From an uncultured Methylophaga sp. (lineage in GTDB: Bacteria; Pseudomonadota; Gammaproteobacteria; Nitrosococcales; Methylophagaceae), in assembly GCF_947259025.1 (NCBI RefSeq), contig NZ_CAMYKO010000004.1, positions 1 to 64,000 on the forward strand: a stretch of 64,000 nt of DNA, read 5' to 3'. Position numbers and translations under genes: made by a program. Positions 3,896 to 27,415 of the stretch are shown piece by piece; the first letter of the stretch is position 1; each line of letters begins with the position of its first letter. A model generated the notes under the pieces. It saw nothing but the letters and a program-made list of their open reading frames with translations, was not told the DNA's origin and made no database searches.

Positions 3896-5194
3896 TTATT
3901 GTCTGAACGGCGACCAGGCCGGTTCTCGAACTGCACTGCCTGATTCTCCCAGGCGTTGTTTAATACGGCCGTCCACGGAGACTGCCGCCAAAACACCTCT
4001 GCCTTGTTGCTCTGTCGCATACAGGATCATGCGGCCGTTGGGCGCAAAGCTCGGGGATTCATCTGCCGTGGTTTCTGTTAACACCTGCACGGCACCTGTC
4101 TGCAAATCCTGGATAGCAATATGGAACTTGCCATTGACGGCATGCACCATCGCCATATTGCGGCCATCCGGTGAAATATCCGCAGACGCATTATAACTGC
4201 CTTCAAAGGTCACCCGCTCGGCACGACCACCATCAGCATTCACCCGGTAAATCTGCGGGCGACCACCGCGGTCCGAAGTAAACAGGATTTCGCGGCCATT
4301 AGGCAGCCACACCGCCTCGGTATCGATGGCCTGTGAATTATGCGTGACCCGTGACAGATTACCGGAAGCCAGTTCCAGTACATAAATTTCCGGGTTGCCG
4401 TTTTTCGACAAAGTCAGCGCCAGCTTCTTGCCGTCCGGTGACCACGCAGGGGCACTATTAAGGCCACGGAATGAAGCAACCGAGTTGCGACGACCGCTGC
4501 TCAGTTGCTGCACATAGACTTCGGCTTTGTTGTTTTCGAAAGTCACATAGGTCAGTTGCTGACCATCCGGTGACCAGTTGGGAGAAAGGATTGGCTGCGT
4601 GGATTGCAGCACTGTGCGCGGGTTAGCGCCATCGGCATCAGAGACCTGCAGAGCAAAGCGCTTGCTGCCATCCGCATTTTTCATCTCGCTGACAAAAGCC
4701 AGCCGGGTTGAGAACACGCCTTTTTCACCGGTCAGTGTCTCATAGACGATATCGGAAATCTGATGCGCCAGATTGCGCAGACCTGAGGCAGGCACATTAT
4801 AGCGCTTGCCTACCAGTTGCTCGGCTTTGTAAACATCGTAAAGCTGGAACTGAACCTGGTAGTTTTCGCCATCCTGACTGCTGATCTTGCCGATCAGCAA
4901 ACCTTCGGAGCGCAGCAGGCGCCAGTCCTGAAAGTTGACCTGCTGGCCTTCATGCGGCTCTGAAATCAGATCACGTTTTTCCAGCGGCGCGAAGCGGCCA
5001 CTGCTTGCCAGATCGTTGCTGACAATATCGGAAATATTTTCCGGCGGTGCATAACCCTCAACCCCGAACGGGACAATCGCAATCGGCAGTGCTGCTTCGG
5101 AACCGCCGGTGATCTCAATCGTAAGCAGGGCATGCGCCGGCCATGGCACCAATGCTATCAGTAGCGCGATGAGTTTGAACCACTGTCTGAACAT
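3896..5194 (-). CDS. tolB: Tol-Pal system beta-propeller protein TolB
   Basis: TolB is the periplasmic protein that moves between Pal and TolA. The 432-aa product has a signal peptide (to about ALL, residue 24), an N-terminal alpha/beta domain (to about 165), then a six-bladed propeller with repeated WSPDG-type WD/PD40 motifs (NWSPDGQQL, AWSPDGKKL, WLPNGREI, ISPDGRN, FAPNGRM). It starts 12 bp after tolA ends. Confidence 0.97.
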   Translation of the reverse strand: MFRQWFKLIALLIALVPWPAHALLTIEITGGSEAALPIAIVPFGVEGYAPPENISDIVSNDLASSGRFAPLEKRDLISEPHEGQQVNFQDWRLLRSEGLLIGKISSQDGENYQVQFQLYDVYKAEQLVGKRYNVPASGLRNLAHQISDIVYETLTGEKGVFSTRLAFVSEMKNADGSKRFALQVSDADGANPRTVLQSTQPILSPNWSPDGQQLTYVTFENNKAEVYVQQLSSGRRNSVASFRGLNSAPAWSPDGKKLALTLSKNGNPEIYVLELASGNLSRVTHNSQAIDTEAVWLPNGREILFTSDRGGRPQIYRVNADGGRAERVTFEGSYNASADISPDGRNMAMVHAVNGKFHIAIQDLQTGAVQVLTETTADESPSFAPNGRMILYATEQQGRGVLAAVSVDGRIKQRLGESGSAVREPAWSPFRQ

Positions 5195-20988: not shown

Positions 20989-21017
20989 TTGTCATCAAAC
21001 TGTCATGGTTTTTTCAT
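20989..21017 (+). promoter_or_regulatory. Triple Pho box upstream of the phosphate porin
   Basis: Three 7-bp direct repeats, TTGTCAT, CTGTCAT and TTTTCAT, are spaced by 4 bp (CAAA, GGTT), giving an 11-bp period. This matches the PhoB box consensus CTGTCAT-N4-CTGTCAT with one extra half-site. It ends 81 bp before the porin start codon. PhoB would activate the porin under phosphate limitation. Confidence 0.85.
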
Positions 21018-21098
21018 CAGCGTGAAATATTTCGGGCATAAGGTGTGCGGGACTTCGGCATTGGACCGGATTTAAAAACCAACCAAGAGGATAGTCCC

Positions 21099-22490
21099 TT
21101 GAAACTCAAATCAACATCTCTTTTAATCGCAGGTGCGTTGTTTGGTGCAGCAGTCATGCCAGCACAAGCTAACAACGATGCCATGATGGATCTGCTGGAA
21201 GTGCTGCGTGACAAAGGCACCATCAGCTCTCAGGATTACGACTTGCTGAAAAATGCCGCGGCAGCGGACAAAGAAGCCAGCGAAGAAGTCGCTAACAAAG
21301 TTAATAAAGTTGAGAAAGAAGCGGTTTCAGTCAGTCTGAAAAAAGGCGCGATGAAGCTTGAATCCGGCGACGGCGCATTCAAGGCACAGGTCGGCGGTCG
21401 TGTGATGGCTGACTACGCCTGGATCGATGATGATGATCGCGCAGAACGTATTGGCGATGCCAGTGGTGACGGTTCTGAACTGCGTCGTGCCCGCCTGTTC
21501 ATGAAAGGCACTGTTTTCAACGACTGGAAATACAAAATGCAGGTCGGTTTCGCCGGTGACGAAGTCGAAATCAAAGACGCTTATATTGGTTACACCGGTT
21601 TCGATGCCGTTGACTTCACACTGGGTAACCACAAAATGCCTTTCAGCCTGGAAGAGCAAACCAGTTCTAAATACATCACCTTTATGGAACGCAGCCTGAC
21701 CAACGACATTTTCTCTCCCGGTCGTCAAAATGGTCTGAGCGCTGCCACCAACGGTGATAACTGGTCTTTGAAAGGTGCGGTACATATGGACGGTATCGAC
21801 AACAACAACGAAGACAAAGATGAAGATTACGGCTACGGTGCCCGTGCTCACTTCGCACCACTGGTTGACGGCAGCAACGCCATTCACCTGGGTGTGTCAT
21901 GGCACCACCAGGAATATGAAGAAGAAGGTCTGAACAACGGCACACACGGTGACCAGCGTTTCCGTGCCCGCCCTGAAATTCACACTGTGGATACACGCCC
22001 TTACCTGACAAACATTGATGGCGTTGAAGATGACGATACCATCGGTCTTGAAGCAGCTGGCGTGTTTGGTCCTTTCTCTTTGCAAGCTGAATACTTTGAC
22101 AAGAGCATCAATACTGAAACTGATGATGTCGATTTTGACGGCTGGTATGTCTACGGTAGCTTCTTCCTGACTGGTGAATCACGTGCCTATGAGGCAGACG
22201 CTGGCGAATTCGGCCGTGTTTCTCCGAAGAGCACTGTGGGTAACGGTGGCTACGGTGCCTGGGAACTGGCACTGCGCTACTCTGAAATTGACCTGTACGA
22301 CTCAAGCTCAGCGGCTGTGACTGATGCCGGTGAAAAAGGCGATATCTTTACCATTGGTCTGAACTGGTACGCCACACGCAACATCCGTGTGATGGCGAAC
22401 TATATCGATGCCACTGTTGAATACCCGGGTCAGGGTATTTCTGATGAAGACATCAAAGCCTTCCAGCTGCGTGGTCAAATTGACTTCTAA
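21099..22490 (+). CDS. Phosphate-selective porin, OprP/OprO family
   Basis: This is an outer-membrane anion channel for phosphate or polyphosphate uptake. The mature part contains the OprP-type core (VGGRVMADYAWID, ELRRARLFMKGTVFNDWKYKMQ, GNHKMPFSLEEQTSSKYITFMERSL) and ends in the outer-membrane signature GQIDF with C-terminal Phe. A signal peptide ends at MPAQA, followed by a short coiled coil (about 25-65). I place the start at the TTG at 21099: it has a good SD (AGAGGA, 8 bp away), and it gives a normal signal peptide, MKLKSTSLLIAGALFGAAV. The upstream ATG would add 18 charged residues. Length is 463 aa. It is controlled by the Pho box upstream. Confidence 0.93.
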   Translation: MKLKSTSLLIAGALFGAAVMPAQANNDAMMDLLEVLRDKGTISSQDYDLLKNAAAADKEASEEVANKVNKVEKEAVSVSLKKGAMKLESGDGAFKAQVGGRVMADYAWIDDDDRAERIGDASGDGSELRRARLFMKGTVFNDWKYKMQVGFAGDEVEIKDAYIGYTGFDAVDFTLGNHKMPFSLEEQTSSKYITFMERSLTNDIFSPGRQNGLSAATNGDNWSLKGAVHMDGIDNNNEDKDEDYGYGARAHFAPLVDGSNAIHLGVSWHHQEYEEEGLNNGTHGDQRFRARPEIHTVDTRPYLTNIDGVEDDDTIGLEAAGVFGPFSLQAEYFDKSINTETDDVDFDGWYVYGSFFLTGESRAYEADAGEFGRVSPKSTVGNGGYGAWELALRYSEIDLYDSSSAAVTDAGEKGDIFTIGLNWYATRNIRVMANYIDATVEYPGQGISDEDIKAFQLRGQIDF

Positions 22491-22518
22491 GCTAAAGCAC
22501 TGAATTGATGTCAGTCTT

Positions 22519-22555
22519 AAAAAGCCCCGCTTAATCTTTTAAGTGGGGCTTTTTT
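22519..22555 (+). terminator. Intrinsic terminator inside the porin/propeller operon
   Basis: AAAAAGCCCCGCTT pairs with AAGTGGGGCTTTTT (14 bp, one G-U) around an eight-base loop and runs into six T. It ends 15 bp before the next start codon. Expression of the downstream gene therefore needs read-through or its own promoter, which suggests the porin is made in excess over the propeller protein. Confidence 0.9.
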
Positions 22556-22570
22556 ATGGAGAAAAAATTA

Positions 22571-24082
22571 ATGAAAATGATGTATCAAACTTTGCTTGCC
22601 ACTATGGCACTGAGCGTCAGTGTCAATGCATCGGCTTTGGATACTGTTGAATTGCTGGATGTGATCCAGACCGGCAACAAGAAAGGCGATGAGATCGTCT
22701 CTGTGCAAAGCAGCAGCAAGCAGCTTGCCGTCTCTAACAGTAAGAAAGGCAGCGTCGATATTTATTCCATTGCCAACCCCGGTCAACCTGTCAAACAACA
22801 CAGCCATGCACTGTCACTAACTGACGGCGAGCAATTAACTTCTGTCGCCATGCACCCGGAATATTCCTATTTTCTGGCTGCGATTCAGGCTACAGGTGCC
22901 ACTGCCGCAGGTCGTGTTCAGTTTCATGACATTGACTCGGGTACATTGCTGGCCAGCTTGCCAACCGGCATAGGCCCGGACGCCGTGGTGATTGATCCCA
23001 CCGGCCGTTATGCGATGTTACCCAATGAAGCTGAAGCCTTTATCTACCACCCGGAAGATGAAACTTTCAGTTCTCCTGAAGGCTCTCTGACTCTGCTTAA
23101 GCTGGCACAGACAGCGCAGCAGAGTGAAGCCGTACAAATTGCATTGCCAGACCTGACCGGTAAAGCCGGGTTTGTCAGTGCGGCTGACAAGCGTTTTATT
23201 GAGCGTGAAATTGACTGGAATGGTGATGGCAAAATCACTGAAGAAGATGTCGATCTGGACAACAACGGTACGATTAGCGAAAACAAAATGACTGTGGGCA
23301 CATTCCGCGGAGAGCCGGTCAGAGTGGAAGAGGAAGACGGAGAGCTTTTCCTGTTTCCATTATTCGATAATCAACCTGATGTGCTTGAGCCTGAATACCC
23401 GGCCTTTTCGCCTGATGGCTCAACAGTCTGGGTAAGCCTGCAGGAGAACAATGGCATGCTCGTAGTAGATACTGAGTCAGCCACTATCATCGACAGCTTT
23501 GGCCTGGGCACCACAACCCATCCGGCCGATCTGGACGACAACCAGAATGTTGATTTCAGCGAGACTCTGACCGCCCTGAGAGAGCCCGATGGCATTGCCA
23601 TCAGTAAAAGTGGTCGTTTCCTGCTGACCGCTGATGAAGGCGATACCGATCCCAAGGCCTCTAAAACTAAAAAAGGTCCGGCAGGTGGTGGCAGAACCAT
23701 CAGTGTATTTGATGCCGGCAATGGTGAGTTTATTGCTGATACCGGCAATCAGATTGATCTGATGGCACATAATAAAGGCATTTACCCGGAGTCGCGCAGT
23801 GACAATAAAGGCTCCGAACCGGAAATGCTGATCAGCTTTACCGACATGGGTATCGACTATGCGGCAATTGGTCTGGAGAGAGCGAATGCGCTGGCATTGT
23901 TATCCCTGCAAAACCCTCAGCAGCCCGTCATTCTGGATATTACTGCGATCAATGCTGATGCAGAAGATGGAAAGGTGGCCCCAGAGGGTGTGGCCTACTA
24001 TCAGGACAAAGACAGTGGGTCGCATTATATATACACCGCCAATGAAAAAGACGGCACACTGGCCGTATTTCAATTACGTTAA
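22571..24082 (+). CDS. Secreted choice-of-anchor I beta-propeller protein with EF-hand loops
   Basis: The 503-aa product has a signal peptide (MKMMYQTLLATMALSVSVNASA) and repeated propeller-like strands (VAMHPEYSYFLA, VVIDPTGRYAML, PAFSPDGSTVWVS, IAISKSGRFLLTADEGD). It ends with the GVAYYQDKDSGSHYIYTANEKDGTLAVFQL signature of choice-of-anchor I proteins, often linked to alkaline phosphatase or 5'-nucleotidase modules. Three EF-hand-type calcium loops are visible: DWNGDGKITEED (215-226), DLDNNGTISENK (228-239, incomplete) and DLDDNQNVDFSE (320-331). I chose the ATG at 22571 because GGAG lies 9 bp before it; an ATG at 22556 abuts the terminator. Its position after the porin suggests a phosphate-starvation role. 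Confidence 0.8.
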   Translation: MKMMYQTLLATMALSVSVNASALDTVELLDVIQTGNKKGDEIVSVQSSSKQLAVSNSKKGSVDIYSIANPGQPVKQHSHALSLTDGEQLTSVAMHPEYSYFLAAIQATGATAAGRVQFHDIDSGTLLASLPTGIGPDAVVIDPTGRYAMLPNEAEAFIYHPEDETFSSPEGSLTLLKLAQTAQQSEAVQIALPDLTGKAGFVSAADKRFIEREIDWNGDGKITEEDVDLDNNGTISENKMTVGTFRGEPVRVEEEDGELFLFPLFDNQPDVLEPEYPAFSPDGSTVWVSLQENNGMLVVDTESATIIDSFGLGTTTHPADLDDNQNVDFSETLTALREPDGIAISKSGRFLLTADEGDTDPKASKTKKGPAGGGRTISVFDAGNGEFIADTGNQIDLMAHNKGIYPESRSDNKGSEPEMLISFTDMGIDYAAIGLERANALALLSLQNPQQPVILDITAINADAEDGKVAPEGVAYYQDKDSGSHYIYTANEKDGTLAVFQLR

Positions 24083-24093
24083 AAGCCACAGTA

Positions 24094-24126
24094 GCTCAGT
24101 CTCTGCCTGGCAGGGACTGAGCTTTA
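24094..24126 (+). terminator. Terminator after the propeller gene
   Basis: GCTCAGTCTCTGC pairs with GCAGGGACTGAGC (13 bp, one G-U) around a CTG loop, followed by TTTACTAA. The T run is short, so efficiency may be moderate. Confidence 0.7.
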
Positions 24127-24305
24127 CTAAACTCGAAACAGCTTAAGAATTCATCGAATGGTAATAATTCACATATATGATGTGTATTGAGTTTATTCAG
24201 CAACCTGCCGGTTTATAGGCACAGACGCTCAAGACAGCCGGCTTACTGAGATTACTCATCTCTCGTGGTGACTTATCCTGCCTCTCCGGGGGCAGGATTT
24301 TTTTT
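24127..24305 (+). ncRNA. Putative structured leader or small RNA ending in an intrinsic terminator
   Basis: The gap between the propeller gene and the EAL/GGDEF gene holds several inverted segments: GCCGG near 24207 with CCGGC near 24237, TGAG-ATTA-CTCA near 24247, and others. It closes with a clear intrinsic terminator. It is either a 5' leader that attenuates the downstream gene or a separate RNA of roughly 130-150 nt. Parts (GACGCTCAAG, AGCCGGCTTAC) resemble c-di-GMP-I riboswitch motifs, but a required helix seems missing. The promoter was not found with confidence. Confidence 0.4.
24275..24305 (+). terminator. Intrinsic terminator immediately before the EAL/GGDEF start
   Basis: ATCCTGCC pairs with GGCAGGAT around a small loop (the stem may extend through TC/GG), followed by a run of eight T. 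It ends only 14 bp before the start codon of the next gene, which has a weak ribosome binding site. Such placement fits conditional read-through. Confidence 0.88.
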
Positions 24306-24319
24306 GGTAGCGGCTCAGT

Positions 24320-26143
24320 ATGACACAAGAAGAACTTCGCCATTTTCACTCACTGGAAGAGATTCTCAGTCAAGGGACTTTGACACCACTGTTTCAACCG
24401 ATAGTCTCGCTACAACAACAGCAGATTCTGGGTTATGAAGCTCTGATTCGTGGTCCTTCCGACAGTCCGCTGCACTCTCCTATCAACCTGTTCAACACGG
24501 CCCACCGCCATGGCCGCCTGGCCGATCTGGATTTGTTATGTCGTGAGACGGTGATCCGCCGTTTCGGTGAGTTAGGGCTGAACCACACCCTGTTCATCAA
24601 CACCTCTCCGGCTGCATTGCTGACAGAGGGTTACCCGCATGGCCTGACCCTTAAGTATCTGCAACAGGCGGGGCTATCACCACAACAGGTGGTCATTGAA
24701 CTGACCGAGCAACATCCAATTGATGACTATGAGCTGATGCGCGATGCCACCCGCCATTACCGCGACATGGGCTTTTCCATCGCCATTGATGACCTGGGCG
24801 CGGGGTACTCGGGCCTCAGAACCTGGTCTGAACTCAAGCCTGATTATGTCAAGCTGGATAGGCATTTTATGCAGAATATCCACGACGATCGACAAAAACG
24901 CCATTTCGTTCAATCAATGATTGATATTGCCCGTAGCATTGGCTGTAAGGTCATTGGTGAGGGCGTCGAGGTGCGTCAGGAGTATCTGGCGGCACAGAGC
25001 CTCGATTTGCAATTTGTGCAGGGTTATTATTTCGGTCGCCCGACCCGTCACCCACAAGCCAGCCTTGATCCAAATCTGTTCAGTCAACGTCAACAAAACA
25101 GCCTATTACAGGCCGGCAGACCCAGAAAAAATACCCTGGTGGGCAGCCTGCTCAATGAACTGGCACCGCTGCGCTGTAACGACAGTGTCGAGCAGGCGGC
25201 AGAACGCTTTCAGCGACAATTGAAACTCACTGCTTTGCCCGTGGTGGACAACACCAATCGAGTCAAAGGCATGCTCTGGCGGGATGAATTCATGACGCTG
25301 TATGCCAGCCGTTTTGGCCGGGAATTATATGGCCGTAAATCGGTAGAGACATTTATCGATACCACGCCCGTTGTCGTAGAAACCAGTCAGTCTCTGAAAA
25401 ATCTGAGTTACTACCTGACCAGTCAGCAGTCAGAGCAACAGCACAGCGTTTTTATCATCACCGAAGAACAACGCTATCGCGGGGTAGGCAGCCTAATCGA
25501 CCTTTTACGACAGATCACCGATATGCAAATCACCATGGCCCGCCATGCCAACCCGCTGACCGGCCTGCCAGGCAATGTGCCGCTGAGCGAGCAGACCCGG
25601 GATGTGTTGGAACAGCAACGGGATGTCACCGCCTGTTATATCGACCTGGATAATTTCAAGCCTTATAACGATATTTACGGCTACGGCAAGGGCGACCAGG
25701 TGATCCACCACACTGCCAAAATCCTTCGTGAGCACATCAATAACGATATTGATTTTATCGGCCATGTCGGCGGCGATGATTTTATTATTCTGTTCGAAAG
25801 CCCTGACTGGCGTCAGCGCTGTGAAGCCATCCTCGACGCGTTTCAGCAAGTTCAGCCGCAGTTATATAATCATCGACATATGCAGCAGCAAGGCATTCAC
25901 GCCATGGACCGGCACGGGCGAGAGATGTTTTACCCTCTGATAAGCCTGTCGATTGGCGCGGTAAGGTTCAGGGATTTCGCCGGCATTCTGGTTGAGAGTG
26001 AGTTGGCGGAGTGTGCTACTAAAGCCAAATCAATGGCAAAACAGATAAATGGCAACAGTCTCTACCTGCTGGGTAAACAGCAGTGTGAATGCAATGAAAA
26101 TCTCGTTTCGCCTCGCCTGATGGCTAGTAATAATCAGGCCTAG
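24320..26143 (+). CDS. EAL-CBS-GGDEF c-di-GMP signalling protein
   Basis: The 607-aa protein combines an N-terminal EAL phosphodiesterase domain (about 10-255), a CBS-pair-like sensory region (about 270-400) and a C-terminal GGDEF domain (about 415-590). The EAL part keeps active residues: YEALIRG, the Glu in IELTEQ, DDLGAGYSG, KLDRHFM and GEGVE. The GGDEF signature is VGGDDF with the upstream DLDNFKPYND and GDQVI motifs, so cyclase activity is plausible. The EAL-CBS-GGDEF order matches regulators such as FimX-like or CBS-containing phosphodiesterases. It has no transmembrane helix, so it acts in the cytoplasm. It converges with arsC, with a 4-bp 3' overlap. Expression may be attenuated by the terminator just upstream. 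Confidence 0.9.
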   Translation: MTQEELRHFHSLEEILSQGTLTPLFQPIVSLQQQQILGYEALIRGPSDSPLHSPINLFNTAHRHGRLADLDLLCRETVIRRFGELGLNHTLFINTSPAALLTEGYPHGLTLKYLQQAGLSPQQVVIELTEQHPIDDYELMRDATRHYRDMGFSIAIDDLGAGYSGLRTWSELKPDYVKLDRHFMQNIHDDRQKRHFVQSMIDIARSIGCKVIGEGVEVRQEYLAAQSLDLQFVQGYYFGRPTRHPQASLDPNLFSQRQQNSLLQAGRPRKNTLVGSLLNELAPLRCNDSVEQAAERFQRQLKLTALPVVDNTNRVKGMLWRDEFMTLYASRFGRELYGRKSVETFIDTTPVVVETSQSLKNLSYYLTSQQSEQQHSVFIITEEQRYRGVGSLIDLLRQITDMQITMARHANPLTGLPGNVPLSEQTRDVLEQQRDVTACYIDLDNFKPYNDIYGYGKGDQVIHHTAKILREHINNDIDFIGHVGGDDFIILFESPDWRQRCEAILDAFQQVQPQLYNHRHMQQQGIHAMDRHGREMFYPLISLSIGAVRFRDFAGILVESELAECATKAKSMAKQINGNSLYLLGKQQCECNENLVSPRLMASNNQA

Positions 26144-26740: not shown

Positions 26741-27415
26741 GTGAAAAAAATCTTCAGTTGCACTCTGCTCATCGCTGCTCTTTGCCTGCCAGCCCTCAGC
26801 CAGGCGCAAACAACGCGTTATGTTTCCGACGAACTGGAAATCACCATGCGTAACGGCCAGGGCATCAAGTTCGGCATCAAGAAAATGCTGCAGTCCGGCA
26901 CCCAGCTTCAGGTGCTGGAAACCGACCCCGCCGGTTACTCCAAGGTCCGGACCCCGGAAGGTGCTGAAGGCTGGGTCTTAACCCGTTATCTGAGCAACAG
27001 CCCCAGCGCCCGTAATCAACTGGAATCCAGCAAGCAGCGAGTGGCAAACCTGGAGCTGGAAATCAGCAAATACAAAGAGGAAATTGCCTCGCTGAGTAAC
27101 CAGAACTCCGATGTTGATTCCAAGAACCTGACCCTGCGCGAGAAATCACAGCGCTTGAGCAAGGAGTTGGATGATCTGCGTCGTACCGCTTCCAACGCTG
27201 TAGCACTGGAAAACGAAAACCGCCAGCTCAAAGAGAAACTGCAACAAATCGACCACGAAAATCAGTCTTTGGTGATCGAAAACAACGCGCTTAAAGACAA
27301 CAGCACCCGTAACTGGTTCCTGGTCGGCGCAGCGGTATTGTTCTCCGGGATCTTACTGGGCCTGATTCTGCCCAGACTGCGCATTCGCAAGAAAGACAGC
27401 TGGGGTAGCCTCTAA
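26741..27415 (+). CDS. ygiM: SH3-domain membrane protein, TIGR04211/YgiM family
   Basis: The 224-aa product has a signal peptide (to AQA, about residue 23), a bacterial SH3 domain (about 25-85; RYVSDELEITMRNGQGIKFGI through EGWVLTRYLS), a coiled coil (about 92-190), and a C-terminal transmembrane helix (about 196-214) with a basic cytoplasmic end. This is the E. coli YgiM layout. The start is GTG at 26741. The function of the family is not established; the SH3b domain suggests cell-wall binding. Confidence 0.88.
   Translation: MKKIFSCTLLIAALCLPALSQAQTTRYVSDELEITMRNGQGIKFGIKKMLQSGTQLQVLETDPAGYSKVRTPEGAEGWVLTRYLSNSPSARNQLESSKQRVANLELEISKYKEEIASLSNQNSDVDSKNLTLREKSQRLSKELDDLRRTASNAVALENENRQLKEKLQQIDHENQSLVIENNALKDNSTRNWFLVGAAVLFSGILLGLILPRLRIRKKDSWGSL

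Follow-up and report, generated by a model that had tools for sequence, protein, structure and literature searches.

A suspected riboswitch ahead of a c-di-GMP enzyme gene in Methylophaga is most likely the hairpin-and-terminator end of a phosphate-starvation operon

The textbook case of an intrinsic terminator between genes that is passed at a low level is E. coli rpsU-dnaG. The locus described here was found in the window (the whole 64,000-nucleotide stretch of Methylophaga DNA that was analysed). It was similar in that a strong hairpin and a T run stood shortly before the next start on the same strand, and this arrangement was repeated across relatives. However, an extra conserved hairpin was placed before the terminator in four species, and read-through is what we infer here. 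The c-di-GMP-I and c-di-GMP-II riboswitches (RF01051 and RF01786) also have a terminator ahead of a c-di-GMP gene, but they contain an aptamer, and none was matched in the window. Another comparison is given by 3'-UTR-derived small RNAs, for which a review advises, in the sections used here, searching for conservation beyond the terminator (PMC9438474). As described in those sections, such RNAs share with our element conservation beyond the terminator after a stop codon, a Rho-independent terminator and Hfq in the genome, whereas the element is a candidate at the sequence level. The toxic small RNA of Betaproteobacteria (RF02278), in the excerpts of PMC4603805 used here, resembles it with a length of about 57-67 nt and two hairpins, of which the second is the terminator. 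On the side of the enzyme, RapA of Pseudomonas fluorescens is a Pho-controlled c-di-GMP phosphodiesterase according to the portion of PMC3032545 consulted. The window enzyme is likewise of the EAL type and appears to be tied to phosphate starvation. Control in the window would differ in being by read-through, and in some relatives by an own box.

The features of the locus are collected in Table 1. The gene order was a PhoB-box-like site, the porin gene, the choice-of-anchor gene and the EAL-CBS-GGDEF gene. Scoring used a PhoB-box consensus, on which a score of at least 16 was reached at 3 of 127958 window positions, two of them from the 20989 tandem site. A phoB gene was found above the cut-off in the genome, and the locus seems to belong to the Pho regulon. 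What the sequence itself establishes is the gene order, the PhoB-box-like site, the terminator and where it stands, and the pattern of conservation. The porin gene had been listed from GTG 21045, and TTG 21099, with AGAGGA ahead of it, looks like a better start. The porin terminator (region 22520-22580) abutted the next start, its T run touching ATG 22556, and there were therefore two terminators directly before start codons at this locus. ATG 22571, preceded by GGAG, looks better and may be the real start of the choice-of-anchor gene.

Table 1. Features of the locus, in coordinates of the window
Feature	Coordinates	Strand	Basis or detail
Tandem PhoB-box-like repeat upstream of the porin gene	20989..21021	+	TTGTCATCAAA CTGTCATGGTT TTTTCATCAGC; score 17.9
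Phosphate-selective porin O/P gene	21099..22490	+	PF07396, E = 1.2e-71
Porin-gene terminator, directly ahead of the next gene's start	22520..22553	+	sequence
Choice-of-anchor I family gene	22556..24082	+	PF22494, E = 3.2e-20
Strong hairpin following the stop codon of the choice-of-anchor gene; no proper T run	24093..24123	+	24083-24130, z = -4.75
Spacer taken for an aptamer in the original prediction	24124..24254	+	without match in relatives
Hairpin 1, TCATC-TCTCGT-GGTGA	24256..24271	+	invariant in four species
Intrinsic terminator, eight T	24275..24305	+	stem 24275-24298, T run 24298-24305
EAL-CBS-GGDEF gene	24320..26143	+	PF00563, PF00571, PF00990

The two upstream proteins probably had a separate history. 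The porin and choice-of-anchor proteins resembled those of G059, which belongs to another genus of the family, at 63% and 56%, and the porin gave 41-42% with the porins that the close relatives G003, G005 and G013 carry at the corresponding position. Blast similarity to close relatives stopped at about 21275 and restarted at 24255 (window 21275-24254). Because the cassette was nearer to G059 than to the close relatives and similarity was broken over this stretch, these results suggested that the porin and choice-of-anchor cassette was exchanged. The spacer 24083-24254 had no counterpart in G059.

With moderate confidence, we read 24255-24305 as the 3'-end module of a phosphate-starvation operon, with the EAL-CBS-GGDEF gene transcribed by read-through. 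The module would consist of a short hairpin, a U-rich linker and an intrinsic terminator, and the operon upstream would comprise the porin and choice-of-anchor genes behind a PhoB-type promoter. Polymerase from this promoter would mostly halt at the 24275-24305 terminator, and a minority would pass it and transcribe the EAL-CBS-GGDEF gene. When phosphate is scarce, a little c-di-GMP enzyme would thereby be made. The spacer upstream of the module would not be a ligand-sensing aptamer. We infer PhoB control, the efficiency of termination, that EAL mRNA arises mainly by read-through, and in which direction c-di-GMP would change. The riboswitch claim gives way to a layout that can be tested, in which a c-di-GMP enzyme gene is tied via a terminator to a phosphate-starvation operon in a group of methylotrophs.

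The original prediction had placed a terminator with an eight-T tail 14 bp before the EAL/GGDEF start, and this was borne out. The stem had 10 pairs, 6 of them G-C, with a loop of 4 and 8 T, which gives the G-C-rich stem and trailing T run of an intrinsic terminator, and 14 nt separated the T run from ATG 24320. Pairing of the stem was kept despite changes, one A-T pair of the window being G-C in L035, and the stems of L038 and L039 had other inner pairs that were still paired. The ribosome binding site had been called weak, which was also correct, since no Shine-Dalgarno-like sequence was found in these 14 nt, either in the window or in the three closest relatives. The start at ATG 24320 was backed by the alignment of the relatives, which began at residue 1. 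The window enzyme probably breaks down c-di-GMP, as its EAL domain could be aligned with solved EAL phosphodiesterases. Its GGDEF motif read GGDDF in the translation and may be degenerate.

The leader 24127-24320 had also been described as rich in inverted repeats over 150 bp, with fragments similar to c-di-GMP-I aptamers, and as perhaps a riboswitch-like RNA tuned to c-di-GMP. None of these claims was confirmed. The 184-nt stretch that includes the terminator folded with z = -2.30 (3/200 shuffles equally stable). With the terminator left out, inverted repeats were not beyond chance, as the z value was -0.91 for 24127-24271, with 36 of 200 shuffles equally stable, and -0.63 for 24190-24275, with 50 of 200. 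The hairpin at 24093-24123 was clearly non-random, with 0 of 200 shuffles as stable as 24083-24130; it precedes the predicted range and lies directly after the upstream stop codon. The Rfam check for c-di-GMP families was run on 23980-24420 with 4227 families at E<=10 and gave six matches below the cut-off and no c-di-GMP family. At the gathering thresholds, the whole window gave rRNA and tRNA and nothing else. When 24083-24319 was used as the query, the sequence before 24255 had no match in 57 relatives. A known or new c-di-GMP riboswitch within 24127-24320 is extremely improbable. Its location ahead of a c-di-GMP enzyme gene would fit, and the terminator could act as an expression platform. 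However, besides the lack of a c-di-GMP family, of conservation and of folding beyond shuffles in this leader, in L035 and L036 the corresponding place was still coding sequence, the end of the gene upstream.

The same query gave matches in three of the 57 relatives, beginning at 24255-24256, with identities of 96%, 92% and 89%. In the alignment of the four, 16 bases were invariant (TCATCTCTCGTGGTGA, 24256-24271); a U-rich linker that varied in sequence came next and the terminator last, and all four folded into a 5-bp hairpin plus the terminator. At 4-fold degenerate sites of the EAL gene, the three relatives agreed in only 81/209, 90/206 and 85/208 (about 40%), and hairpin 1 therefore appears to be under constraint. 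Because the stem was invariant in all four species, there was no covariation for hairpin 1. It was missing in L039 and degenerate in L038. The region 24083-24319 was present once in its genome, and a dispersed element was rejected. A leader peptide across the element was rejected by eye, since changes in linker and T-run length break any common frame. A literature search of short and partial coverage, which makes it weak evidence of absence, gave no Methylophaga paper describing an element of this kind.

Sixty-three genomes of the order were searched with a covariance model built from the element. At E<=0.1 it gave 18 places in 17 genomes, against a chance expectation of about 6 from rough E-values. 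Placed by coordinates were 7 of the 18, namely the four founders (E<=1.7e-16), G002 at an EAL locus (29.2 bits), and G011 and G019 at porin 3' ends (26.5 and 22.9 bits), where another gene of 969 nt separates the porin from the EAL gene. Of the 24 genus genomes, only 4 gave a strong score. When at most one mismatch was permitted, the 15-base pattern of the hairpin had 19 hits, spread over 18 of the 57 family genomes, and the reversed control pattern had 7. Exact matches were four, all at the EAL locus.

The surroundings of the element were compared among 30 loci, which were the window and 29 of the 80 loci found (L035-L062 and L064; at least 50% identity); the other 51 were excluded, and L063 and L065 were scanned outside the counts. 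Some of the 30 were short upstream, for example L058 with 85 bases and L056 with 1111. In 18 of 30 loci a terminator ended 20-47 nt before the EAL start, where shuffles gave an expectation of 0.0, and this leaves little room for a promoter, although one may overlap the terminator region. It was the porin's own terminator in ten loci (L040-L044, L049, L050, L052, L062, L064) and followed the choice-of-anchor gene in the window, L035, L036 and L039. In L037 and L038 the porin had its own terminator, a leader containing a PhoB-box-like site (14.4 and 17.5) came next, and the terminator counted here was the second. L058 and L059 were among the 18 and outside these groupings. The remaining 12 had no terminator in the last 85 nt before EAL. 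These included L048, L054, L060 and L061, in which a PhoB-box-like site scoring 16.3-18.2 lay within 320 nt of EAL. These four loci support the operon-end reading. Sites scoring at least 16 were found upstream of EAL in 20/30 loci and downstream in 6/30, a control that is not fully neutral because four of the six (L037, L043, L045, L057; minus strand, 422-471 bases in) sit roughly at the expected start of the LMWPc gene. The simplest reading is that the EAL gene would be under phosphate control, via its own box or via read-through from the upstream operon.

The operon-end reading was further supported by L035 and L036, in which the upstream stop codon lay a few bases ahead of the element. In the window the distance was 170 nt, and since a strong hairpin already follows the choice-of-anchor gene, the element may act there as an additional stop. 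However, hairpin 1, its loop included, was more conserved than would be required of a plain terminator. The element was not directly after the stop codon of a gene in L037 and L038; because these loci had a porin terminator of their own and a separate leader with a box, the element cannot be read there simply as the porin operon's end.

These last loci bear on the alternative that the element is a regulated attenuator of EAL, in which a protein or another RNA on hairpin 1 would set passage through the terminator. The terminator of L037 and L038 lies within an apparent EAL leader. In addition, blast alignments with L035-L037 started at 24255-24256, so that the element and the EAL gene stay together while the genes upstream differ, with a differing choice-of-anchor gene before the element in L035 and L036 and the leader in L037. 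However, no convincing antiterminator emerged, as pairing of the spacer with the 3' arm reached -12.8 kcal/mol, as did 33 of 300 shuffles, and that of hairpin 1 with the terminator 3' arm -7.0 kcal/mol, compared to -18.2 for the terminator. The spacer was not conserved, hairpin 1 was lost or degenerate in L039 and L038, and the element-like ends of G011 and G019 precede a different gene. We regard this attenuator as improbable. Of the regulated read-through proposed originally, the read-through part fits the terminators in the 18 loci, but nothing indicated regulation.

The short conserved hairpin that adjoins the terminator might represent a small RNA with a regulatory role. The proposed stretch gave no support for the small RNA of the original prediction, but one is possible for 24255-24305, the sole conserved part, which resembles an operon 3' end; the prediction had named such an end as an outcome against it, and this is largely what was found. 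The conserved end of about 55 nt would be a 3'-UTR-derived or stand-alone, Hfq-bound small RNA in which hairpin 1, with its CUCUCG loop, is joined by the U-rich linker to a terminator that ends in a long U tail. It would be freed upon transcription of the Pho operon and pair with purine-rich ribosome binding sites. The 16 invariant bases include the loop, at the low 4-fold agreement given above; Hfq is encoded in the genome; and the two-hairpin layout occurs in known short small RNAs. In G011 and G019, element-like ends also followed the Pho-locus porin, with a different gene next. As for features of 3'-UTR-derived small RNAs, the element of L035 and L036 was placed at the 3' end of an mRNA and included a Rho-independent terminator, and conservation was found besides the terminator. 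The facts seem to fit such an RNA better than an EAL-specific attenuator. However, the invariant stem gave no covariation, and the strong score was confined to the 4 of 24 genus genomes. In addition, pairing of hairpin 1 with neighbouring start regions gave no convincing target, as 14 of 200 shuffles were as good for the porin ribosome binding site, 27 for the gene at 26741, 95 for choice-of-anchor and 131 for EAL. We consider this reading possible but rather doubtful. It is compatible with the operon-end reading, and the two are not mutually exclusive.

The loop motif was counted ahead of 59 terminators, 57 without repeats (20 porin, 5 EAL, 32 other). One tRNA-side terminator was moved by hand from the porin class to the controls, giving 19 and 33, and terminators with loops >9 were left out, so that some porin ends were not counted. 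CTCTC[CG] was found in 6/19 Pho-locus porins and 0/33 other terminators (p = 0.0013; 0.0018 with sister species merged). The association with porin ends is only suggestive, because the count was post hoc and made on related species, the looser TCTC[CG] was weaker (8/19 vs 4/33, p = 0.018) and, in the initial sorting, the reversed [CG]CTCTC likewise occurred more often with porins (2/20 vs 0/32). A more specific and unlikely proposal is that porin-operon transcripts terminate in, or are processed to release, a small RNA so far undescribed, whose CUCUC-G/C loop would control other mRNAs by masking their ribosome binding sites, and whose terminator would be passed on rare occasions to give the c-di-GMP enzyme. 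If true, one module of about 55 nt would couple phosphate hunger to control at the RNA level and to c-di-GMP in Methylophaga-type methylotrophs. If hairpin 1 is a small RNA, it would offer a compact example in which the end of an operon both acts in trans as a regulator and meters the next gene.

Matches to known small RNAs were also inspected. The best Rfam match of the window element was RF02278 at 22.4 bits (cut-off 50), with mostly the terminator matched. Among three relatives, L002 gave RF02278 at 26.4/50 bits and anti-hemB at 19.1/49.5 bits, and the L003 copy only gave the Listeria small RNA sbrA (RF01489) at 34.4 bits (E = 0.00036, cut-off 45), all largely terminator-borne; sbrA had no match in window region 23980-24420 at E<=10. 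These three identities were rejected, as all were below the curated cut-off.

Minus-strand PhoB-box-like sites (15.7-16.9) were observed 422-520 bases into the stretch downstream of EAL in L035, L037, L039, L043, L045 and L057. Since they lie about where LMWPc would start in these six loci, this phosphatase/arsenate-reductase-like gene may also be phosphate-controlled. In the case of L038 (Methylophaga thiooxydans), the EAL start at 3980-4015 looked tandemly duplicated (ATGACTGAAGAAGA, ATGACCAAAGAAG...), which gave a tiny overlapping frame.
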